Positions 2-21,609 of a stretch of DNA of 21,609 bases are shown here, in pieces; position 1 is the stretch's first letter, and every line of letters starts with the position of its first letter. A program made the translations under genes and the position numbers. The DNA lies in IMG/VR virus record IMGVR_UViG_3300020445_000093, positions 1-21,609 of that record. The stretch is one strand, 5' to 3'. The notes beneath the pieces were generated by a model. The model ran no database searches, was not told the origin of the DNA, and saw only the letters and a program-made list of their open reading frames with translations. Source of the DNA: a virus.

Positions 2-3000
2 ACTATTACATATAATTCCTCTACTAAGAGAGTAACAGTAGGGTTTAATACAGGATTTAGTGATCTATTCCCATTCGCTGTTGGTGATAATGTTTTAATT
101 GAAAATACGAGTGTTGGAGTAGGATCTACTGCAAAGGGATATAATTCAGCGGCATATAATTATAAGTTATTCCCAATAACTGAGGTTAATACTGCTTTAG
201 GTGGTAATACAGGATCTCTTGTTTATGATATGTCTAGTGTTTTGGAGAGTGGAGCATATCCTGGTTATTATGATCCTAACACTTCATTTGGTAGAGTAAT
301 TCCTGAAAAAGAATTCCCTATATTTGATATTAAATTAAAAGTTAATGATTTCTTGGTGGGAGAAACTGTTGCTACTGGTGACAAAGAAGGAATAGTTGAA
401 AGTTGGAATAATAAGATTGAAACTCTTAAAGTTTCAACTAATAGTGAACTTGAAATTGGAGAAATTCTTAGTGGTCAAACTTCATCTACGAAAGGAGTTA
501 TTAATAGTAAAATTGATTTTGATTCTTATATTAAATTAGGACCCTATTCATCAGTTAATAAGGGATGGATATATGATACAGGAATGCTGAATAATAATGT
601 TCAAAGAATGCCTGATAACAGTTATTATCAGTATTTCTCTTATGCTTTGAAATCTGAAGTTCCTTATCAAACTTGGAATGAGCCAGTTAGTGCTTTAAAT
701 CACACTGCTGGATTCTTGAAGTTTTCTGATTTAATTATCGAGAGTAAACCAGATAATCCAAATGTAGGATTTGCTGAAACCAGTACTGCTGATGTTACTG
801 TTGATATGTTTGGTAAGGGAAATCTGAATTGTGTTTATACTTTTGATCTTGCTTCAGAAGAAGCAGTTAGGATAAATGATGGATTAGTATCTAATGAAAT
901 AGTTTTTGAAAATAGAGTATTAAGTGATTATTCAGAATCCAAAGGAAATAGAGTTCTTACAATAGATGATTTTAGTGGTAAATTTAATCACCAACCAAGA
1001 GCAACAAGATTTGCTGTGGTTGACAATAATGAATTAACTGCAGCAAGAAGCAGGAAATTTTTCACCTATGTAAGAGATAAAAGATATACCCAAGAAAGAC
1101 AAGTTCTTGTTGTATCTTTATTGCACGATGGAGTTAATGGATATCTTAATCAGTATGGAAGAGTAGAAACTCATCCTGATTTGGGTTCATTTGATTGGAG
1201 TATAAGTGGAACTAAAGGACAACTTCAGTTCTATCCAATTAAGTATTCAGTTAATGATTATGATGTTACATTTATTTCTCATGATCTTAAGAGTAATAAT
1301 TCAGGAATAGGCAGCACATCTTGTGGAAGTATTGTTCAAATCAATTCTCATCACACTGAAATTGCTAGTGGATCAAGTTCGGCAACAACAATTGTAGGAA
1401 TTGCTTCTACATATCGTTCTGCTAAGGTTATAGTAGAAATTGGAGCAAATGATGATTCTTATTTTGAATTTGATGAATTAAATCTTATTCATGATGGATC
1501 AACTGTTGATATGGTTGAGTATGGTCAATTAGCGGATAATAATTTGACTCCTTATAATATTGGTGGTTTGGGAACTTATTATTCTTACCTTGAAGGATCA
1601 AGAATTAAAATTGACTTTACACCAGATTCTGCTCTTGGAGTGGGACATAGTATTAATGCTCTTAGTGTTTCTATTGCCAGCAGCACTTCTGGTGCTACTG
1701 GAGTTGGAACTGCAGAAGAATTAAGCACAGGTCTTCTTGATTCTTGGTATACTTCAATTGCTGCTTCAGGAACTCCTGGAATAAACACTATTGCTGAATA
1801 TCATGCAGATTCTCATGGTGCATATTATGTTGTTCAATTAGAAGATACAACTAATAAGCGTTATGAAATGTGTGAGGTTGTTGCATGTGATGACGATGAT
1901 TATAATACCTTAACTGAATATGGTAATGTTCAATTACATACAACTGGTTTAGGAACGATAGGTGCAAATATTGATGGTTCTGATAGAAAGCATTTAACCT
2001 TTATTCCTAATCATAATATTAAGGTTCAGGTAAGAGTCTTCCAAAATGTTTTGAGTCTTGTTAAATCAAGCATTAATAACAGTTCTATTGATTTCAATAA
2101 TGCAGTAATTAATTCCAGTTATGGAGAATATTACGGAACAGAGAGTGATATTAAGAGAACATTTGGTTTACTTCATAACGAGAGACCAATCTTCCAGAGA
2201 TTTGTTGATGCAAGTGATACCTCCTTAGTTAGTGTTTCTGCAGATACTGTTACTATTCCTGATCATTACTTTGTAACTGGAGAAAAACTTGAGTATTCTT
2301 ATGCAGGATCTGGAACTACTCAAGCAATTAGTATTGCTTCTAGCACTGTTCCTGGTATTGGAGTAACTACTAAATTACCTTCTACAGTATATGCAGTTAA
2401 GAGTAATGATAGCACTCTACAATTTGCCGCTAGTGCAGAGAAAGCTTTACTACAAAACCCTGTAGTATTTGATATTAGTGCTGTTGGTATTGGAACTTCT
2501 CACTCCTTTACATCTACTAATCAAAATGCTAAAGCAATAGTAGCAATTGACAACTTCTTCCAGTCACCTATTGTTGGTGGATCAGTTACTACGACTCTTG
2601 CAAAAGATTTAACTCTTTTAGATGAAAAATTAACCTTTAGTGGAATAACATCATTCTTCAGTGGAGATCTGATAAAGATTAATGAAGAAATTATGAAAAT
2701 TAATACTGTTGGTTTAGGAAGCACAAACGTAGTATTAGTTAAGAGACCATGGATGGGAACTGGTCTTTCTACTCATAGTTCTGGAGATATGATTCAGATC
2801 TATGAGGGTAATTATAATATTCGTGAAAATAAAATTCATTTTGTTGAAGCACCTTATGGACCTGATCCTATCTCCTCAACTACTAATGCACCAGATGATA
2901 GGGATTGGGTAGGAATATCCACTCATTCTACTTTCCAAGGTAGAACCTTTATGAGGAGTGGAGTCACTGGTACTATTGCAGAGACTTATGCTAATAATAT

Positions 3001-6000
3001 TATCTTTGATGATATTTCTAACCAATTTACCGGAATTGCTAAAACCTTTACTCTGAAAAAAGATGGAGGATCTAATGCAACAGGATTCTCTACAAGTAAT
3101 GCTGTTGTCTTAGTTAATGGTATATTCCAAGGACCGCAGGGTGTTCAAAGTGAAGTAGAAGATTATGAGATGAAAGAAAGTGCTGGAATTTCTAGTATAT
3201 TCTTTACAGGAACTGCATCTTCTGCTACCTATGATCCTAATAATGCTAATGTTCCTGTTGGTGGAGTAATTGTTTCTGTTGGATCTACCGAAGGATTTGG
3301 TTTACAACCTCTTGTTGCGGCAGGTGGAACCGCTGTAGTTTCTGTTGCAGGAACCATTTCAGCCATTGGTATTGGAACAAGTGGATCTGGTTATAGACTT
3401 GATATTCAACCAACTGTTAATGTTGCTATTCAAACATCCAGTTTGTATGCCGCAAATTACACTGGAATTGGTACTGCACAAATTGTTAATGGTGGAATTA
3501 CTGGAATAGCAATTACTAATCCACAAGTATTCTACAAACCTCAAATACTTACAAATATTGAGTATAGTGGAGCATCTGGATTAGCAACAATTACTACTTT
3601 CTTGCCTCATAAGTTAGAAAGAGGTGAAGATGTTATTCTTTCGGGAATTGCAATGACATGTGAGTATGCTCCTCCACTTTCAATTTCAACCGCTGCATAC
3701 ACCAGTACCACTGGTATTATGACAGTTACAACAACTAGTGCTCATGGATTTAATGCAACTGGTAAATCAAGCGTTGTAATCTTTACTGGATTAGGAATGA
3801 CCTGTGCTATTGATTCAGGTGTTTCTACGCATTATTATCCTAGAGGTCAGGATTATGCGTATAATAATTCCGTATCTATTGCATCCACATCTACTACTGA
3901 TATTACAGTTAATGTTGGAGTAGCAGCAGGTGGAGATCAATACGCTCATACATTTAAACGGGCTTCTGCTAACGCTATAGTTTCTGGTGGTGATTATCTA
4001 CACTCCTTTGTTAGTGCAGCAAGTAGTGCTTTAACATCTAATACTGGATTGGGATATACTCCTTCTAATGCACAGTATACTGGTTCTACTGGTATTATGA
4101 CAGTTACTGTAGCTAATCATGGATTGTTAGCAGGAACTAATACCGTTTCTATTGCACAAAGTTCAATAGTATTCAGATGTGCAATGGATGATAATGCAAC
4201 ATTGCATTCATATCCAAGAGCAACAGATCCATATTATGATACTGCGATTTCAATTGCATCTACCACTGTAAATACTCTTACATTACAAGTTGGTATATCT
4301 AGTCTGAAGTATGATGATGTATCTGCTGCTACGTATAATGCTGCTACTGGTGATCTTGTAATGACAGTTGGTGCAGGTCATAGTTTGACTGCTGGAAGAA
4401 ATATAAAGATTGCACAAAATTCTCTTACCTTTACTTGTGCTAGAGATGCTCATGCTACTGAGCATAGTTATCCTAGAAAACCTGATCCAGGTTATGGTGG
4501 AGTTCCCATTCAAAGTGTTGGAACCACAACTACATTCACAGTCAATGTTGGTATATCTACTGTTCCTACATTCTATCAAGGTGGTGGAACTGTTCAGGCT
4601 GCTATTATGGCACCTAGAGCAAATAACTTCTCTTCAAGTAAGCAAGATCCTGCATCTGGTGGAACCCCTGTTAGCAGAATAGTTAATGAGAAAGCATTTG
4701 AAGTAAATGTTGGTGTATCAACTAGAGAGCACATTTATGCTAGAGGTGGAAAGGTTGAGAAAAAACTAGGAGTTAAAATTGATGATCCACTTTCATATTC
4801 TAATCTTGCCTTAATTTATAGTTCTGAATCTGCACAAGGAATTGGAACATTTGCGACAATTGATGTTGTAGTTGGTCAGGGATCTAGTGTAATTGATTTT
4901 GAAATTAGACAAACAGGATATGGATTCGGTCAAGGTGAAATTCTCACTGTTAATACTGGTGGAAGTGCCGGAATTCCTACTGATCCTAGTCTACCATATA
5001 AAGAATTCCAGATTTCATTAGAAAATACTTTTAGTGATGCATTTGCTGGTTGGTCTATTGGAGATCTTCAAGTATTGGATAATTGGGATGCTTTATGTGA
5101 TGGAAATAATAAGACATTCCCTATTAAGCTAAATGATAATTTCTTAACTATTAGATCTGCAAAGGGATCTAGTATAGATGTTCAATCAACTCTTCTTATA
5201 TTTGTAAATGATGTTCTTCAGAAACCTGGAGAAGCATATACATTTAGTGGAGGAAGTATTGTTAAATTTACTGAACCTCTGAAAGCAGGTGATTCAACTA
5301 AAGTTCTTTATTATAAAGGAACTGGTAGTGTAGATGTTGTCTTTAAAGATGTATTAGAAACAGTAAAAGTTGGTGATGAATTACAATTAAGAAATGAACC
5401 TCGTTTTGACCAAGGATTTGGAATGCTTCAAGATGAAAGAGTTGTTACTGGAATTAATACTACTGATTCTGTAGAAACTAATCCCTATGCTGGTCCTGGA
5501 ATTACTACTGATACTACTGTTTTAAGACCTGTTAAATGGTGTAGACAGACTAAGGATAAGATTATTGATGGTATTAGAATTGGAAAAGATAGAAATCTTT
5601 ACGAACCTATTATTCAACCCACTTCACATTTGATTCAAAATGTTGGTGTTGGTTCAACATGTGCATGGGTTCAAAATGCTAGACCATTTTTTGATCCTTT
5701 AAATGAGAATAATACTACTACTAATACTGATACTATAGAACTTATCTCTCAGGATAGTAAAGTTGCCGCTGCTGCTACTGCTAATGTTTCTACTGCAGGA
5801 ACTATTACTTCTATCAGTATTAGTGAGGGTGGATATGGTTACACATCTGCACCTATTGTTACTATTGGTTCTCCTGTTGGATTGGGAACTACTCCTGGAG
5901 ATAATCAAGCATATGCAACTGCAACTCTAAGTAGTGGTGTAGTAAATGCTATTACTATTGGTTCTACTCCAGGATCGGGATATACTTCTACTAATCCACC

Positions 6001-6598
6001 TGAAGTATTGATTGCTGCTCCAAATCTCATTAAAGGAAAAGCAACCGAAGTAACTTATCAAGGTGATTTTGGAATTATTAGTGGTGTGCATACAACTACT
6101 GTTGGTGTAGCATCAACTGGATTGGTATTTGATCTATTCATTCCACCTGATTCAGAACTTAGAAATTCTGATATTGTTGGAGTTACTACCGTAAGTGGTA
6201 TTGCAACAGGATATTACTTTACTGTTAGCAATTCTAGAATTGGTAATGGAGTAACCTCTCTCTATCAAAATAGTAGCACCTTAGGAATAGGATCTACCTT
6301 TATAGATAATGTGTATGAAGTTGCTGCTGTTTCTATTGGAGTAACCGCAGCAGAATCTAAGACAGGTGCTGGTTTAACTGCAGTTGCTAAGGTAACTGTT
6401 AGTGTTAAAGATTGGAATTCTATAAGTGGTCTTGGATATAGTTCTTACTATGGTAATTTCTCTTGGGGTAAAGTTCTCTTTGGAAACAGAAAGAATGCTC
6501 AAGCATATAATGCATATACTGATGATGGAGTGGTCGGAATTTCTACTGGCGGAATAGTCAGAAGAGTTCATCCACTTAAGGCGAATAATTATAGTTAA
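2..6598 (+). CDS. Giant virion structural protein, 5'-truncated by window (gene 7 position)
   Basis: The frame is open from base 2 to the TAA at 6596-6598, giving at least 2199 residues. The first ATG at 230 has no ribosome-binding site and the frame runs on upstream of it, so the true start is outside the window. The protein is rich in Gly, Ser, Thr and Ile, with frequent GIGST or VGVST-like strings, and has no visible membrane segment or catalytic motif. Modules seen (numbering from base 2): a GE...G..S segment near residues 112-170; an 'INEEIMKI ... H-S-S-G' segment near 860-937; three tandem repeats plus one truncated copy at 1188-1522; and GSGY-type segments near 1110-1180 and 1927-2010. 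The C-terminal end, reading IVRRVHPLKANNYS, looks like a conserved terminal tag of cyanophage virion proteins. It lies directly before gp8, the slot of T4 gene 7 (baseplate wedge initiator), but I see no direct gp7 similarity. A virion, probably baseplate or fibre, role is inferred. Confidence 0.8.
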   Translation, partial: TITYNSSTKRVTVGFNTGFSDLFPFAVGDNVLIENTSVGVGSTAKGYNSAAYNYKLFPITEVNTALGGNTGSLVYDMSSVLESGAYPGYYDPNTSFGRVIPEKEFPIFDIKLKVNDFLVGETVATGDKEGIVESWNNKIETLKVSTNSELEIGEILSGQTSSTKGVINSKIDFDSYIKLGPYSSVNKGWIYDTGMLNNNVQRMPDNSYYQYFSYALKSEVPYQTWNEPVSALNHTAGFLKFSDLIIESKPDNPNVGFAETSTADVTVDMFGKGNLNCVYTFDLASEEAVRINDGLVSNEIVFENRVLSDYSESKGNRVLTIDDFSGKFNHQPRATRFAVVDNNELTAARSRKFFTYVRDKRYTQERQVLVVSLLHDGVNGYLNQYGRVETHPDLGSFDWSISGTKGQLQFYPIKYSVNDYDVTFISHDLKSNNSGIGSTSCGSIVQINSHHTEIASGSSSATTIVGIASTYRSAKVIVEIGANDDSYFEFDELNLIHDGSTVDMVEYGQLADNNLTPYNIGGLGTYYSYLEGSRIKIDFTPDSALGVGHSINALSVSIASSTSGATGVGTAEELSTGLLDSWYTSIAASGTPGINTIAEYHADSHGAYYVVQLEDTTNKRYEMCEVVACDDDDYNTLTEYGNVQLHTTGLGTIGANIDGSDRKHLTFIPNHNIKVQVRVFQNVLSLVKSSINNSSIDFNNAVINSSYGEYYGTESDIKRTFGLLHNERPIFQRFVDASDTSLVSVSADTVTIPDHYFVTGEKLEYSYAGSGTTQAISIASSTVPGIGVTTKLPSTVYAVKSNDSTLQFAASAEKALLQNPVVFDISAVGIGTSHSFTSTNQNAKAIVAIDNFFQSPIVGGSVTTTLAKDLTLLDEKLTFSGITSFFSGDLIKINEEIMKINTVGLGSTNVVLVKRPWMGTGLSTHSSGDMIQIYEGNYNIRENKIHFVEAPYGPDPISSTTNAPDDRDWVGISTHSTFQGRTFMRSGVTGTIAETYANNIIFDDISNQFTGIAKTFTLKKDGGSNATGFSTSNAVVLVNGIFQGPQGVQSEVEDYEMKESAGISSIFFTGTASSATYDPNNANVPVGGVIVSVGSTEGFGLQPLVAAGGTAVVSVAGTISAIGIGTSGSGYRLDIQPTVNVAIQTSSLYAANYTGIGTAQIVNGGITGIAITNPQVFYKPQILTNIEYSGASGLATITTFLPHKLERGEDVILSGIAMTCEYAPPLSISTAAYTSTTGIMTVTTTSAHGFNATGKSSVVIFTGLGMTCAIDSGVSTHYYPRGQDYAYNNSVSIASTSTTDITVNVGVAAGGDQYAHTFKRASANAIVSGGDYLHSFVSAASSALTSNTGLGYTPSNAQYTGSTGIMTVTVANHGLLAGTNTVSIAQSSIVFRCAMDDNATLHSYPRATDPYYDTAISIASTTVNTLTLQVGISSLKYDDVSAATYNAATGDLVMTVGAGHSLTAGRNIKIAQNSLTFTCARDAHATEHSYPRKPDPGYGGVPIQSVGTTTTFTVNVGISTVPTFYQGGGTVQAAIMAPRANNFSSSKQDPASGGTPVSRIVNEKAFEVNVGVSTREHIYARGGKVEKKLGVKIDDPLSYSNLALIYSSESAQGIGTFATIDVVVGQGSSVIDFEIRQTGYGFGQGEILTVNTGGSAGIPTDPSLPYKEFQISLENTFSDAFAGWSIGDLQVLDNWDALCDGNNKTFPIKLNDNFLTIRSAKGSSIDVQSTLLIFVNDVLQKPGEAYTFSGGSIVKFTEPLKAGDSTKVLYYKGTGSVDVVFKDVLETVKVGDELQLRNEPRFDQGFGMLQDERVVTGINTTDSVETNPYAGPGITTDTTVLRPVKWCRQTKDKIIDGIRIGKDRNLYEPIIQPTSHLIQNVGVGSTCAWVQNARPFFDPLNENNTTTNTDTIELISQDSKVAAAATANVSTAGTITSISISEGGYGYTSAPIVTIGSPVGLGTTPGDNQAYATATLSSGVVNAITIGSTPGSGYTSTNPPEVLIAAPNLIKGKATEVTYQGDFGIISGVHTTTVGVASTGLVFDLFIPPDSELRNSDIVGVTTVSGIATGYYFTVSNSRIGNGVTSLYQNSSTLGIGSTFIDNVYEVAAVSIGVTAAESKTGAGLTAVAKVTVSVKDWNSISGLGYSSYYGNFSWGKVLFGNRKNAQAYNAYTDDGVVGISTGGIVRRVHPLKANNYS
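335..511 (+). repeat. 'GE-x-x-x-G-x-x-S' protein module, copy in giant protein
   Basis: The encoded segment has two GE-containing halves, VGETVATGDKEGIVESW and IGEILSGQTSSTKGVINS, separated by about 20 residues. The same pattern appears in gp14 near 18690-18851 (VGETVTGAASSTTGIVNSW, then KGEDIVGASATREVRI). This is protein-level similarity; the DNA is diverged. Confidence 0.55.
2579..2812 (+). repeat. 'E-x-M ... R ... GT ... H-x-x-G' protein module, copy in giant protein
   Basis: The segment runs through DLIKINEEIMKINTVG, then VVLVKRPWMGTGLSTHSSGD. Its layout (a hydrophobic strand ending in E-x-M/I, a second strand, a V-x-R strand, then G-T/S and H-x-x-G/S-D) recurs in the DUF4815-type protein near 14578-14806 and at the C-terminus of gp15 near 19738-19950. 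Such segments are common in phage tail proteins; the fold is inferred to be a small beta domain. Confidence 0.55.
3563..4567 (+). repeat. Tandem beta-type repeats with C-x-x-D ... HSYPR signature
   Basis: Three full units of about 76-78 residues start at 3698, 4076 and 4334. Each begins Y-x-x-x-T-G, has a T-V segment, then H-G/S, a strand ending in T/R-C-A, H-Y/S-YPR, and closes with a V-x-VG(I/V) strand. A shorter unit starting at 3563 (YSGASGLATITTF...) keeps only the first half and stops after the MTC strand. Between units 1 and 2 there is about 50 residues of extra sequence with HTF and HSF motifs. Units 1 and 2 share an identical 20-base stretch (3710-3729 and 4088-4107). Repeats with this signature occur in many marine phage virion proteins; their function is not known to me. 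Confidence 0.75.
5780..6034 (+). repeat. GGSGYT-type protein module, copies in giant protein
   Basis: Two successive units are encoded: ISISEGGYGYTSAPIVTIG and a second ending GSGYTSTNPPEVLIAAP, with an AYATATLSSGVV linker between them. A weaker related region lies near 3328-3545 (GTSGSGYRLDIQP). The same module is found in gp8, the DUF4815-type protein and gp14. Confidence 0.6.
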
Positions 6599-6634: not shown

Positions 6635-8200
6635 ATGGCTGCCATTATAACTGATCAACTTCGTATATTAAATGCCAAGAATTTTGTAGCAGGAGTTGCT
6701 TCAACAGCCAACTCTTATTATTCTTTTGTTGGTTTACCTAATCCTACGGATTATGAATCGGATTGGGATACTACCCCACCTTCTCCTGTTGACAATTTTA
6801 ATCAGGAGAATAATTATTGGGATACGATGATTGCATTGAAAAAGATTAATAAAAGTGATGTAAGGCAAGTCATTAGAAAGACAACTTGGACTTCTGGTAT
6901 TAGTTACGATATGTATCGTAATAATATTAGAGCAACTGATGTTTCTAAACCTTCTGATGCAGTAGACTTATATTCTGCAAATTACTATGTGATGAATAGT
7001 GATTATAGAGTTTATATTTGTCTTCAAAACGGAACTTCTCCTGATAATCCTTCAGGGAGACCTTCTCTTGATGAACCAACCTTTACTGATTTAGAACCAA
7101 GATCAGCAGGAACTAGTGGAGATGGATATGTTTGGAAGTATCTTTATACTATTAGCCCAAGTGATATTGTTAAATTTGATTCTATAGAATATATGCCTGT
7201 TCCTCAGGATTGGGCAACTAATACTAGTGATGCTGCTGTTAGAAAAAATGCTGCTACTAGTGGTCAACTTAAGATTGTCACTATTACTAATAGAGGAGTT
7301 GGTGTAGGAACTGCTAATAAAGTTTATACACAAATTCCTATTAGGGGTGATGGATCTGGAGCACAAGCAACAGTTACAACTAATAATGATTCTAAGGTAT
7401 CTAGTGTAACCATTTCTAATGGTGGATCTGGATATACTTTTGGAACTTTAGATCTTGCTGCTAAAGGTATTACTGGAACTACGGATGCTGCATTTAATGT
7501 TATTATCCCTCCTCCAGGAGGTCATGGTGCAGACATTTATAGAGAGTTGGGTGCTTATAATGTTCTTCTTTATTCTAGAATTGAGAATGATACCGACAAT
7601 CCTGACTTTGTAACTGGTAATCAAATTGCTAGGGTTGGAGTTGTAGAAAGTCCTAAAGCATATGATTCGGATTCAAATCTTGAATCTGATAAAGCAAGTG
7701 CAGTTTATGCATTAAAATTAGCAGGTGCAGGATATAGTGGAGTAACTTATGATCCCGATGATCAAATTACTCAAACTATTGGAATTGGATCAACTGCTTT
7801 TGGTAGAGTAGTTTCTTATGATCAGAATACTGGAGTTCTGAAGTATTGGCAAGATAAATTCCATTGTGGTTTTAACACAGATGGAACTAAAAATACTTCG
7901 CCAACTTATGGGTTTATAATGCAAAGATTTACTGCCGATATAGGTAGTGGAGGATCTTTTAACATTATTGGTGGGAGTGCTACTTTGGGAATTGAAACTA
8001 CTTTTGGTAGCACCGCAAATCCTGGTATAAATACCGTAATAAATAGTCGTACCTATAACTTAGGACAATCTTTTATTAAGGGTGTTGCACAGCCAGAAGT
8101 GAAAAAATATTCGGGTAATATTATTTACGTTGATAATAGACCGGCAATTACTAGATCATCCAACCAAAAAGAAGATATCAAAGTTATTTTGCAATTCTAA
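6635..8200 (+). CDS. 8: Baseplate wedge subunit gp8
   Basis: The 521-residue product is homologous to T4 gp8 (334 aa), a baseplate wedge protein that links inner and outer parts of each wedge. Family signatures: the block from NYYVM to VYICLQNG (residues 116-133); SGDGYVWKYLYTI (161-173) followed by EYMPVP (185-190), matching the T4 GDGYVWEYLFEI ... EYIVVP; and a C-terminal block SGNIIYVDNRP ... EDIKVILQF (493-521), matching T4 SGEMIYMENRP ... EEINILFTF. The extra length lies mainly in the middle: residues about 208-293 form a GGSGYT-type insertion ending in a Pro/Gly stretch (IPPPGGHG), with further Gly-rich loops around 365-470. The ATG at 6635 starts MAAIITDQ, usual for cyanophage gp8. A candidate late promoter lies just upstream; no strong Shine-Dalgarno is seen. 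Confidence 0.93.
   Translation: MAAIITDQLRILNAKNFVAGVASTANSYYSFVGLPNPTDYESDWDTTPPSPVDNFNQENNYWDTMIALKKINKSDVRQVIRKTTWTSGISYDMYRNNIRATDVSKPSDAVDLYSANYYVMNSDYRVYICLQNGTSPDNPSGRPSLDEPTFTDLEPRSAGTSGDGYVWKYLYTISPSDIVKFDSIEYMPVPQDWATNTSDAAVRKNAATSGQLKIVTITNRGVGVGTANKVYTQIPIRGDGSGAQATVTTNNDSKVSSVTISNGGSGYTFGTLDLAAKGITGTTDAAFNVIIPPPGGHGADIYRELGAYNVLLYSRIENDTDNPDFVTGNQIARVGVVESPKAYDSDSNLESDKASAVYALKLAGAGYSGVTYDPDDQITQTIGIGSTAFGRVVSYDQNTGVLKYWQDKFHCGFNTDGTKNTSPTYGFIMQRFTADIGSGGSFNIIGGSATLGIETTFGSTANPGINTVINSRTYNLGQSFIKGVAQPEVKKYSGNIIYVDNRPAITRSSNQKEDIKVILQF
7256..7525 (+). repeat. GGSGYT-type insertion inside gp8
   Basis: This codes for residues about 208-297 of gp8: a strand KIVTITNRG, then GDGSGAQATVT, then VSSVTISNGGSGYTFGTL. 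It falls between the conserved EYMPVP region and the conserved ELGAYNVLLYSRI region, so it looks like a module inserted into, or expanded within, the gp8 core. T4 gp8 has no such segment. Confidence 0.6.
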
Positions 8201-17537: not shown

Positions 17538-18959
17538 ATGGCTCTTAATCCGTATTTTCAACAAGGTGCAACCAGTGAACAAAATCTTGTTCAAGATTTA
17601 ATTAATGAACAACTACGCATGTATGGCGTAGAAATTTATTATCTACCTAGACAGTATATGAAAAAGAATACTGTTATTAAAGAGGTAGTAGAATCTAAGT
17701 TCACTGATGCATATCCAATAGAAGCATATGTTGATACCTATGAAGGATATGAAGGAGTAGGAACATTATTATCTAAGTTTGGAATTCAAGAGTTAGATGA
17801 TTTAAATCTTATCATCTCGCAAGAAAGATATAGTAGTTATATTACCCCTCTTATTAAAAATATACCCAATATAGAATTATCTACCAGACCAAAGGAAGGC
17901 GATTTAATATACTTCCCTCTAGGAGACAGACTATTTGAAATTAAGTATGTTGAGCACGAAAAACCATTCTATCAACTACAAAAGAATTATGTTTATGAAC
18001 TAAGATGTGAACTCTTCCGTTATGAGGATGAGGTTGTTGATGTTGGTGTAGATGATATTGATGATACTGTAATTGATAAGGGTTATATCCAAACTCTTAC
18101 ATTGGTTACAGATGCTGTTCAAGCAACTGCTATTACCGGAATTGTAACCGAAGGTGGATTGAGAACAGTTACTCTTACCAATAGAGGATATAATTATGTT
18201 ACCTCTACTTCTAGTCAATATCCACCTAGAGTTGCTATTTCATCAGTAAGAGATAGTATTCCAGGATCTGCTAATAAAACATATACTGCAGTTGGAATTG
18301 CTACATTAATTGATAATATTATTAATTGCGATGGGGTATTAGATACTAAGGTTCAAGGTGTTGAAATAAGAAATCCTGGTTATGGATATAGTGTTGCACC
18401 TGGTATTGGATTTATTCATAATACAGGGGTAGGTGCTGCTGCAACAAGCGAAATAGCTGATGGCACCTTAGGAATCGTTACAATCACTGAGGGCGGTTCT
18501 GGATACATTACAGAACCAATAGTGACTATTGCTGCTCCTGGAGTAGGTACTACTGCTACTGCAAGGGCAGTTATTAGTACAGCAGGTATTGTAACTGCTA
18601 TTAGATGGAAGGATGCTGGTGTAGGATACACTGGAGGGGATACTCCTACTCTTACAATTGCTGCACCTGATACAGGTGCCTTTGGTGATTATGCGGTAGG
18701 TGAGACTGTTACTGGTGCTGCAAGTAGTACTACTGGTATTGTTAATAGTTGGGATGCAAGCACTGGTATTCTTGAACTGAAGATTGTAGATGGTACTTGG
18801 ACTAAGGGAGAAGATATTGTTGGTGCAAGTGCAACTAGAGAAGTCAGAATTATAAACACTGATGATTTAGTTACTCCTTATGCAGATAATGACAATATTG
18901 AAACTGCTGCAGATGATATATTAGACTTCTCCAAGAAGAACCCATTTGGTGATCCCTAA
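17538..18959 (+). CDS. 14: Neck protein gp14 with large C-terminal expansion
   Basis: 473 residues against 256 in T4 gp14, the partner of gp13 in the neck. The N-terminal core is clear: LNPYF (3-7), RMYGVEIYYLPRQYM (27-41), YEGYEG (68-73), and PKEGDLIYFPLGDRLFEI (118-135) with PFYQLQKN (143-150), matching T4 PKEGDLIYFPMDNSLFEI ... PFYQLGQN. The very end, NPFGDP, resembles the T4 terminal region (SPFDNDFMD). Between them, residues about 190-440 are not in T4: GYNY/GYGY/GGSGY/GVGY units at 217, 281, 319 and 360, then a GE...G..S module at 388-438. AGGT at 17527-17530 precedes the ATG at 17538. The extension probably sits on the outside of the neck; this is inference. Confidence 0.92.
   Translation: MALNPYFQQGATSEQNLVQDLINEQLRMYGVEIYYLPRQYMKKNTVIKEVVESKFTDAYPIEAYVDTYEGYEGVGTLLSKFGIQELDDLNLIISQERYSSYITPLIKNIPNIELSTRPKEGDLIYFPLGDRLFEIKYVEHEKPFYQLQKNYVYELRCELFRYEDEVVDVGVDDIDDTVIDKGYIQTLTLVTDAVQATAITGIVTEGGLRTVTLTNRGYNYVTSTSSQYPPRVAISSVRDSIPGSANKTYTAVGIATLIDNIINCDGVLDTKVQGVEIRNPGYGYSVAPGIGFIHNTGVGAAATSEIADGTLGIVTITEGGSGYITEPIVTIAAPGVGTTATARAVISTAGIVTAIRWKDAGVGYTGGDTPTLTIAAPDTGAFGDYAVGETVTGAASSTTGIVNSWDASTGILELKIVDGTWTKGEDIVGASATREVRIINTDDLVTPYADNDNIETAADDILDFSKKNPFGDP
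18105..18672 (+). repeat. GGSGYT-type repeats within gp14
   Basis: Four related units code for residues about 190-378 of gp14. Each has a strand of the type V-x-x-(V/I)-x-(I/L), then (G/R)-x-G-Y, then P-x-(V/L)-x-I(A)APG. The best pair is ITEGGSGYITEPIVTIAAPG and WKDAGVGYTGGDTPTLTIAAP. The units are diverged at DNA level. Confidence 0.65.
18690..18851 (+). repeat. 'GE-x-x-x-G-x-x-S' module in gp14
   Basis: Residues 385-438 of gp14 carry VGETVTGAASSTTGIVNSW and, after about 15 residues, TKGEDIVGASATREVRI. This closely follows the arrangement at 335-511 in the giant protein (VGETVATGDKEGIVESW ... IGEILSGQTSSTKGVI). Confidence 0.55.
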
Positions 18960-20463: not shown

Positions 20464-21609
20464 ATGTCTGACGACAATATTGAAAATCTACCCTCTATTA
20501 ATGATTTTCTCGAAGAAGAGAACTCTGAGGAATTGCCGTCAATAGAAGAATATGTTGAAAAAGAAGAAGAAGTAATAGAAGAAGAAAAAATAGAAGAGCC
20601 TGTATTAGAAACAACTGCAGGTGACCTTACAGAAGTATTACGTCTTATTAGTGATGTAAGAAGGGATATTCCAAATATTCCTGAAATTAAATGCTACGAT
20701 GAAGAATTAAGGTTACTTTCAGAAGAACTTATAGAACTTAGAAAGAGTATTCCTGAAGTTCCAGAAATACCAGAACAAAAAAGTTATGATGGAGAAGTAG
20801 AAGCAATATGTGAACAAATTGATTTAGTAAGAGAAGAAATAAGAAAATTACCTGAACCAAAATATTATGATGAACAAGTAACGGTAATTGAGGATAGACT
20901 GGATAGTCTTCAAACTGATGTAACTAATTTACCGGAAGTAAAATATTATGATTCTGAAATAGCAGCAATATGTGAACAAATTGATCAGGTAAAGTCTGAT
21001 ATTCCTCGTTTACCTGACTGGGTTAATGAAGATAGTCTTCCAGACCTTTCATGGGTTGGTAGAACTTTTAGTATATTAGATGAGAATGTCACGAAGGTTG
21101 ATGATGCATTACATACGGTTAAGGATAGATTAAAATGTGAAGTTGAACAAATTACAGAATCAATAAGTACTAAACAATTTGAAACTGGTGTTGAAATTGA
21201 AGGTGTTAGAAAAAATATAGAAGAAACAAAAGAAGAAATAAGGGATAATATAAAAGAAGTTACAGATAAAATATATGACGAATTAAAGGAAGCTGCTTTA
21301 CAGATTACAGGTCATCATAGGGAATTTAAAGATGATGATAGAAAATTAAGAAAGCAGATACTTGGTGAATATAATGTATTAAAACAGAATGTTAATGAAA
21401 AGATAAAGGAATTTAATGAGAAAAATATTGAATCTCAAAATGTTATTACAGGATCTCTTAGAGATTATTTTGATCAATTACAAAAGGAGATTACTGAACT
21501 TCCTGAAGTAAAATATTATGATAAAGATGTTGAAGGATTAAGAAAAGACCTATCTTCATTAGATGAAAAATATGGAGAGACATCTACTAATATTAGAGAA
21601 CTTTATAGA
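20464..21609 (+). CDS. Long coiled-coil protein with LPEVKYYD-type repeats, 3'-truncated by window
   Basis: The frame is open from the ATG at 20464 to the last base (382 codons, no stop), so the gene continues beyond the window. The protein is very rich in Glu, Lys, Asp and Ile, with a strongly acidic N-terminus (residues 13-50) and long amphipathic helical stretches. A motif of the form (I/L)PE(V/I/P)-x-(K)-x-YD recurs with YD ending at residues 79, 109, 136, 163 and 353; the first four are 27-30 residues apart, the intervals filled with heptad-like helix (for example VEAICEQIDLVREEIRKL). VEAICEQID and IAAICEQID are near-duplicates. A break at about 180-202 (IPRLPDWVNEDSLPDLSW) separates the repeats from a long second coiled coil. 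No Shine-Dalgarno is evident. The place after gp16 suggests a virion or packaging-associated protein; the function is unknown to me. Confidence 0.85.
   Translation, partial: MSDDNIENLPSINDFLEEENSEELPSIEEYVEKEEEVIEEEKIEEPVLETTAGDLTEVLRLISDVRRDIPNIPEIKCYDEELRLLSEELIELRKSIPEVPEIPEQKSYDGEVEAICEQIDLVREEIRKLPEPKYYDEQVTVIEDRLDSLQTDVTNLPEVKYYDSEIAAICEQIDQVKSDIPRLPDWVNEDSLPDLSWVGRTFSILDENVTKVDDALHTVKDRLKCEVEQITESISTKQFETGVEIEGVRKNIEETKEEIRDNIKEVTDKIYDELKEAALQITGHHREFKDDDRKLRKQILGEYNVLKQNVNEKIKEFNEKNIESQNVITGSLRDYFDQLQKEITELPEVKYYDKDVEGLRKDLSSLDEKYGETSTNIRELYR
20674..20952 (+). repeat. 27-30-residue coiled-coil repeats (PE-x-K-x-YD)
   Basis: Four successive units end in KCYD, KSYD, KYYD and KYYD (residues 76-79, 106-109, 133-136, 160-163). 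A fifth copy, LPEVKYYD, lies far downstream at residues 346-353 (21499-21522), suggesting that a second repeat array begins there. Confidence 0.7.

Follow-up and report, generated by a model that had tools for sequence, protein, structure and literature searches.

A marine T4-like phage carries, in its gp7-like baseplate wedge protein, an array of predicted endosialidase-like barrels, probably nested in one split unit

We analysed a stretch of 21,609 bases from a virus (IMG/VR record IMGVR_UViG_3300020445_000093, hereafter the window), which carries a block of baseplate and neck genes of the T4-like phage type. Its first open reading frame (ORF), at 2..6598 on the + strand, is open at the 5' end and encodes 2198 amino acids (aa) of a gp7-like baseplate wedge initiator, whose C-terminal third holds an array of HxYPR units of about 74 aa each (74-position profile). 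The account that we favour, with better than even confidence, is that these units are barrels of the E1-FCCH/endosialidase-like type, that the array stems from one loop of the gp7-like protein, bracketed by two half-units that we named H and C', and that it decorates the baseplate for contact with glycans. At the level of sequence, the comparisons show differences in copy number, the H/C' bracket in 24 of 24 array-bearing close relatives, and whole units lying between complementary halves at other sites in these phages. That H and C' form one barrel, hosting the array in the loop that in full units carries the C..D..HxYPR element, is supported by predicted models. The role of the array, we infer, may be to decorate the baseplate as an exposed and variable structure in contact with glycans.

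The cassette inserted in the wedge protein (aa 1177-1590; 3530..4771, on the + strand like all features given below) is absent from the relatives with zero units, where this place reads, for example, ITNP-GFGYTTTNPPI-VVFDDPLSYS. It starts with the leading half-unit H (aa 1186-1224; 3557..3673), the putative N-terminal half of a split barrel with four predicted strands, which ends in ..MTCEYAP, just after TC, and is without D..HxYPR. Then come unit 1 (HYYPR; aa 1233-1307; 3698..3922), a linker with two YxHxFxxAxxxA-type stretches (3923..4075), for which short strands are predicted and which is kept in relatives, unit 2 (HSYPR; aa 1359-1433; 4076..4300) and unit 3 (HSYPR; aa 1445-1519; 4334..4558). 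A previous examination of this DNA, the sequence-only reading, had described one half-unit and three full units, every one of the latter with C..D...H[SY]YPR, and we found them as it claimed. Behind unit 3, past the region which that reading had delimited, lies the trailing half-unit C' (APRANNFSSSKQDPASGGTPVSRIVNEKAFEVNVGVSTREHIYARGGKV; aa 1537-1587; 4610..4762), the putative C-terminal half of the split barrel. It carries the pattern of a C-half, ..PR....DP....V..I....F.VNVG.S, and starts at about the unit position at which H stops.

The number of units was compared in 50 distinct gp7 relatives that count as close, having both flanks present and a C-flank identity of at least 43%, a limit between close and far that was chosen after the values were known; the set is without 13 re-fetched loci and contigs lacking both flanks, and the row of the window was merged into the identical L002. 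Full-length units, counted by profile, numbered 0, 1, 2, 3, 4 and 6 in 26, 8, 1, 2, 8 and 5 relatives, respectively, and a looser count (E below 1e-5, any length) gave 5, 7, 8 and 8 units in L092, L135, L140 and L159. In the 26 array-free relatives ITNP is followed by a short GxGY turn and then by V.FDDPLSYS or a close variant, while in the 24 with an array the distance from flank to flank ranges from 192 to 961 aa. Copy number thus varies at a homologous site, as the sequence-only reading had proposed, and the range of 0 to 6 units excludes the constancy among relatives that it had taken as evidence to the contrary.

Both half-units were detected by profile search in 24/24 array-bearing relatives, with worst E-values of 2.7e-10 for H and 5e-7 for C'; eight of the 24 had gone into building the profile, and in L103 and L111 H was found by profile though it lies beyond the position limit of the copy-number count. 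Neither H nor C' was found in the 26 array-free close relatives. The one-unit relatives that were inspected present the order H-unit-C', and in multi-unit arrays the N-half of the first unit and the C-half of the last one align with the single unit of those relatives. Furthermore, a profile of H joined to C' matches contiguous units elsewhere (best in L111, E 3.3e-17), with 183 matches of more than 75% coverage at a domain E of 1e-3 or better. Since H and C' co-occur and, as described below, their aligned ranges fit one contiguous endosialidase barrel, the array is probably nested inside a split unit formed by both halves in the predicted models, and for the half-copy, half of a split domain is a better reading than debris.

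It could be argued that the array is linear, like beads on a string, and that H and C' cap it as two modules independent of each other. Caps would co-occur as well, and a pair of cysteines, one after the DPx[YF] of the last unit and the other in C' (e.g. YARCG), points only to a contact between the last unit and C': both cysteines are present in 7 relatives, neither in 17, and only one in none (n=24). This pattern, with L181 having both cysteines and L100, similar to it by eye, having neither, fits a bridge or common site shared by the last unit and C'. We nevertheless consider independent caps unlikely, because the strands of H match the first four of a unit and those of C' the rest, because endosialidase barrels align across H and C' together, and because complementary splits surround guest units at other loops too.

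The structural part of this evidence comes from two AlphaFold2 models, one of the one-unit relative L086 (317 aa) and one of the window (526 aa). In both, the four predicted strands of H resemble strands one to four of a unit, and C' supplies the rest; a short helix precedes the C' strands in the one-unit model only. Against the PDB, the L086 unit matched best the FCCH half-domain (PF16190) of the ubiquitin E1 Uba1 (Z 9.7, 82 residues, 2.2 Å), a eukaryotic enzyme domain with another role; the likeness is one of fold. The split pair of L086 matched best the endosialidase beta-barrels (PF12195; endoNF 424-505, phi92 256-338), with Z 8.2 for phi92 and 7.6-7.8 for endoNF over 79-80 residues, the model side running over 43..243/244 and the endosialidase side over 82-83 contiguous residues of the chain. 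For the window model, whose fold matches have Z 8.6 and 8.4, endoNF was first (Z 8.6, 75 residues, root-mean-square deviation 2.0 Å, model 43..452). Judged from these predicted models, the units and the split pair would have the endosialidase-barrel/E1 FCCH fold. By eye, endoNF also shares with the units an HGLxVGDxV core and a V-I-D-x-x-x-F-T-V strand. Matches in BFVD include a baseplate wedge initiator of S-SSM7, a cyanophage 'endosialidase' and a protein of an uncultured phage named for E1 FCCH. An E1 match of the window model runs over 87..401, and at least the closing strand of the unit 1 barrel may therefore come from behind unit 3. The window array may thus be nested twice in the model, H and C' enclosing all of it and the start of unit 1 pairing with that strand. 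The endosialidase barrel is inserted in another domain and occurs as a single copy in an enzyme; it is not known to host further copies of itself.

The sequence-only reading had attributed the half-unit, as well as the additional stretch separating units 1 and 2, to unequal recombination. An origin of this kind would be a crossing-over between tandem units that leaves a truncated copy, with slippage expanding and contracting the array. Several observations agree with it. The 20-mer ACTGGTATTATGACAGTTAC, at 3710..3729 in unit 1 and 4088..4107 in unit 2, is repeated exactly at a spacing of 378 bp, as had been claimed; copy number differs among relatives; the linker before unit 2 in the window resembles the unit 2 linker of relatives followed by their unit 3 body, as after an in-register loss of one unit; and all three pairs of window units are slightly above the expected codon identity. 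The 20-mer is the longest exact repeat of the gp7-like ORF, where shuffles (500 codon shuffles of the region and 100 of the ORF) gave 17 as the longest. It falls within the homologous motif TGIMTVT, and for this reason, and given that the codon identity of the units barely exceeds what codon usage predicts, it is a weak signal. Identical codons in the window pairs amount to 19/28 (units 1-2), 17/25 and 23/36, against 15.9, 14.8 and 19.8 expected, and in relatives the identity between units lies both above and below expectation (65 unit pairs of 66, a misaligned one of L054 being excluded; the alignment covers 15 of the 24 insert regions, nine one- or two-unit rows having been excluded as MAFFT put the half-unit on unit 2). 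These values give no indication of recent copying, and recent duplication or gene conversion receives little support from them. Tandem Repeats Finder reported no array in the region.

The history of the units was followed in a tree of 56 units from 14 array-bearing sequences, L135, L159, L173 and L103 being the multi-unit ones outside it. The tree is built on 75 columns and leaves 17 forks open, so that only the groups by position and one clade of guest units (97/94), described below, were used. In it, unit 1 of the window groups with the first units of relatives, unit 2 with the third units of four-unit relatives (with a branch support of only 81/30) and unit 3 with their fourth units. The units group by position and not by phage, which indicates that they are old. 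On these groupings, the window would lack the second unit of its four-unit relatives, either through loss or because it was never gained, and the join at the missing unit coincides with the linker/unit boundary. A recombination remnant is difficult to reconcile with the grouping by position, with the codon identities of relatives on either side of expectation, with the result of Tandem Repeats Finder and with a half-unit that is accompanied by C' in 24/24 relatives that have an array, whether 1 or up to about 8 units separate the two. We consider it quite improbable as the origin of the array, although unequal recombination may still explain single gains and losses. The two claims of recombination traces were not sustained: the half-unit is paired with C' throughout and, by the aligned ranges in the two models, both fit one barrel, and what separates units 1 and 2 is a conserved linker, present in the seven relatives aligned.

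Whole units enclosed by complementary halves are also present at other sites. When 989 profile matches in 187 ORFs were sorted into full units, N-halves and C-halves, 43 distinct triples of N-half, full unit and C-half were found, in 30 of which the breakpoints match within 6 positions. The end of the N-half predicts the start of the C-half, with a mean misfit of 4.8 positions versus 15.5 when the C-halves were permuted, and none of 10,000 permutations was as low. The triples represent 34 host clusters (less than 70% alike), with the breakpoint in loop A in 19, B2 in 9 and B1 in 6; the clearest nested case, L092, has positions 1-48, then a full guest, then 47-73. As judged from these sequences, complementary half-units around full units would make this a self-nested domain array. 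Two features are enriched among the enclosed units: Trp follows YPR in 28/43 guests versus 129/528 other units, and an HTF stretch comes next in 34/43 versus 213/528; at the FTC/YPR loop (B1), Trp after YPR was present in 0/6 guest clusters. Seven putative guest units form the above-mentioned clade in the gp7 tree, L092_u3 and L140_u4 being assigned by the triple rule and five by eye, and L140_u2, also in this clade, has a long branch and an odd letter composition.

A wider proposition can be built on these triples, namely that in marine T4-like phages the barrel is self-nesting, with three preset loops (after HxL, from FTC to YPR and from YPR to DP) at which it takes in members of its own family, which would give branched rather than linear adhesins. 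We give this slightly less than an even chance. Within it, the guest subfamily, often with Trp after YPR and with HTF, would be the insertable module. Some of the lone halves could belong to multi-unit inserts or have undetected partners; not all halves are accounted for.

Several results weigh against the account that we favour, or against parts of it. Both models are of moderate confidence, with a mean pLDDT (predicted local distance difference test) of 72.4 and a pTM (predicted template modelling score) of 0.57 for L086, and 78.4 and 0.51, respectively, for the window. By blocks of ten residues, the window model reaches 84-97 in unit 2 and mostly 77-92 in unit 3, and it is weaker than unit 2 in unit 1 (58-89) and C' (51-93). 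The packing of H against C' is read from the first and last residues of the aligned ranges and from strand order. According to the tool's own note, Z values near 8 are attainable by unrelated folds, and unrelated barrels (a ribosomal protein, LumP, tail-tube proteins) matched over an equal range with Z 6-7.5; Foldseek against the PDB gave weak E-values (best 3.3e-3). The sequence alignment of the units with endoNF is weak, and two profiles differ on where the gap is placed. When 141 units were compared with 24,736 Pfam families, E1_FCCH ranked first by units matched (10/141, best E 0.0012) and End_beta_barrel fourth (5 units, best E 0.0032), while Cthe_2159 (8 units, 6.3e-4) and DUF7243 (6 units, 1.1e-4) had better best E-values than both barrels. 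By curated cut-offs the array belongs to neither family, as 0/6 records exceeded 35 bits for PF12195 and 0/6 exceeded 29.5 bits for PF16190 (best 19.2 bits), and the weak searches also match in control genomes, 8 of 14 with PF12195 and 4 of 14 with PF16190. Twelve more distant gp7-like proteins have units (only a partial one in L155) and no recognisable H or C', which confines the bracket to one clade. The association of the two cysteines has a p of 2.9e-6, computed with phylogeny ignored. As to the triples, 13/43 are off by more than 6 positions and some of them are related to each other, and the majority of the 195 interior N-half and 113 C-half matches (duplicates kept) fall outside simple triples. 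The barrel of endoNF was found largely tolerant to mutation in a deep-mutational preprint (PMC12632334). Finally, both the ligand and the surface exposure of the array are our inference.

Regarding the conserved motif, the sequence-only reading had proposed an invariant pattern of Cys, Asp, His, Pro and Arg. An alignment of 52 units (of 63 non-redundant ones), taken from named phages and from close relatives and including none from pattern-selected contigs, shows no variation in the Cys, the Tyr-Pro-Arg or the later Asp (of DP), and the Asp three residues after the Cys is present in 51/52. The invariance of the His did not hold, this position of HxYPR being His in 41 units, Lys in 10 and Thr in 1. 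In the larger set of 141 units, made up of the three window units and 138 of 140 others that had been picked, Cys and Pro never vary, and Tyr, Arg, His19 (of HGL) and Asp55 are each conserved in at least 90%; this conservation is partly by construction, since some of the contigs had been selected with a DNA pattern that requires F-T-C, D, Y-P-R and D-P to occur once in each of them. The suggestion that the motif is an element of a fold rather than filler was borne out. The C/YPR/D element hardly varies among phages that were isolated on different hosts, and it is therefore more likely to have a structural part, as a clasp of the long loop, than to determine specificity. Five sequences (L097, L107, L124, L148 and L157) have a variant unit in which TTTIFPDP replaces HxYPR, matching the joined H+C' profile with E 5e-10 to 3e-7, which suggests a sister subfamily.

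What the array does can be approached through endoNF, where about 12 residues (SNSAVTGVSGDM) lie between two core strands at the place at which the units have their longer C..D..HxYPR stretch. According to PMC12632334, a preprint, the sialic-acid site of the endoNF barrel comprises S460, S468 and G504 and is tied to host discrimination, of which it is a hotspot; S460 and S468 fall between the two core strands that can be aligned with the units. We propose that the array would be extruded from one loop of the wedge protein, the host loop of the H/C' barrel corresponding to the short loop of the endosialidase barrel with the sialic-acid-site residues. On the baseplate, it could touch glycans of the host surface during adsorption, through contacts that are weak or avid, and arrays would grow and shrink by gain or loss of whole modules at permissive loops, not by continuous tandem homogenisation. 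It is also conceivable that the array serves structure alone, as a spacer or a stiffener, without ligand and with neutral drift of copy number, which is compatible with the nested anatomy. The near-invariant core motif in phages of different hosts agrees with this, as does the range of 0 to about 8 units in related phages, which indicates that copy number is not critical. We judge a mere spacer rather unlikely, since the predicted fold of the array is that of a phage barrel with a glycan site, and since in an experimental evolution of cyanophage S-TIM4 adapting to hosts (PMC6224464), all but 2 of the 8 mutated particle genes with an ascribed function encode tail fibre or baseplate proteins, although this does not concern the present domain specifically.

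In a DNA search, 8 phage records matched, with identities of 67.5 to 75.6% and with the names Synechococcus phage or Marine virus. A protein search with units 2-3 matched 327 records out of 50,697 from phages, and the names of all 327 are Synechococcus, Cyanophage, Prochlorococcus or Marine; the gp7 part upstream of the array matched 206 phage records, and a scan of viral contigs gave 39 loci. An iterated profile counted, in the stretches fetched, 18 units in one ORF of P-RSM6, 10 in P-SSM7, 7 in Sf-FS3, 6 in the gp7 of P-HM1, 5 in P-TIM40, 4 in Syn1 and 1 in S-RIM8. The DNA pattern of the core motif occurs in at least 120 stretches of viral contigs and in 25 of genome contigs, mostly metagenome-assembled genomes. 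Giant cyanophage virion structural proteins (phrog_701, phrog_5342 and phrog_18802) carry 1 to 18 copies per ORF in the stretches fetched, in different host proteins, and the window ORF matches these three across its units. According to PMC3037559, 18 hypothetical structural proteins of S-SM1 virions await assignment. The literature search, with subscription papers largely outside it, returned no description of the HxYPR repeat, its nesting or its domain status among the papers listed; the fold is known, and none of these papers showed a baseplate protein with several copies of it in a self-nested arrangement. If our account is right, giant structural proteins of abundant ocean phages would be trees of one small barrel instead of featureless repeats, and there would be a testable rule for the sites at which new modules are added. 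A repeat without a Pfam match above cut-off in the records tested would also gain a fold and, with glycan contact at the baseplate, a candidate role, and protein-evolution studies would gain a natural example of nesting of same-family domains.

The assignment of the ORF as a gp7-like baseplate wedge initiator is based on a match of its non-array part to the profile phrog_2885 (baseplate wedge subunit), with E 0 and with aa 3-1323 as the best stretch, and on a gp8-like baseplate wedge protein directly downstream (6635..8200, + strand; Pfam Phage-Gp8, E 3.1e-15). T4 gp7 and its cyanophage homologues, called 'baseplate wedge initiator' in Bellamy and P-HM1, likewise have gp8 downstream and match phrog_2885. 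The Bellamy protein is 47.9% identical to the window ORF and, unlike it, has no array, as is the case in 25 other close gp7 relatives. Complete ORFs of the window clade have about 4,000 to 4,800 aa, 4,571 aa stop to stop in the four-unit relative L003, against about 1,030 aa for T4 gp7. In P-HM1 and Bellamy, gp6 or a wedge subunit lies upstream of gp7; the window starts inside gp7. A Pfam scan of the whole gp7-like ORF gave no family at E 0.1, and pieces of the ORF gave sub-cut-off matches at E 0.14 or worse. The YHYH domain, the label of the Sf-FS3 homologue, was not among the Pfam matches of the ORF or the weak matches of the units. A PDB match to iota-carbonic anhydrase (E 0.00099) was rejected as the sum of three weak repeats, none passing singly, and matches to CTP synthase (E 0.63-0.64) were rejected too.

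Upstream of the array, in the same ORF, weak sub-cut-off matches to PF12195 were observed in L003 (record positions 5235-5405 and 5700-5822) and in L086 (7225-7392 and 5932-6063), the best having E 2.9e-7 for one record in a search that also matches 8 of the 14 control genomes; gp7 possibly has further endosialidase-like barrels ahead of the part contained in the window. The isolate assembly of Nonlabens xiamenensis 1Q3 contains HxYPR units, on the contig NZ_RMVE01000006.1 (188 kb), and has a T4-type gp23 capsid gene as well (E 2.1e-145), which suggests that a T4-like phage genome was assembled with this flavobacterium. Another contig with the motif, QCLS01000003.1 (189 kb), comes from the single cell Prochlorococcus AG-418-C09 and is perhaps the genome of an infecting phage. 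Other genes of the window encode a 2537-aa phrog_358 protein, a head-tail adaptor Ad2, a gp14 neck protein, a gp15 sheath stabiliser and a gp16 small terminase, and no tRNA was found in the window. The gp14-like neck protein (17538-18959) has a C-terminal extension that matches tail and baseplate families (phrog_5342, phrog_708 and phrog_701). The last ORF, which is open and encodes a repetitive, charged protein, contains a 22-bp exact repeat (20802-20823 and 20964-20985), longer than the 20-bp repeat of the array.

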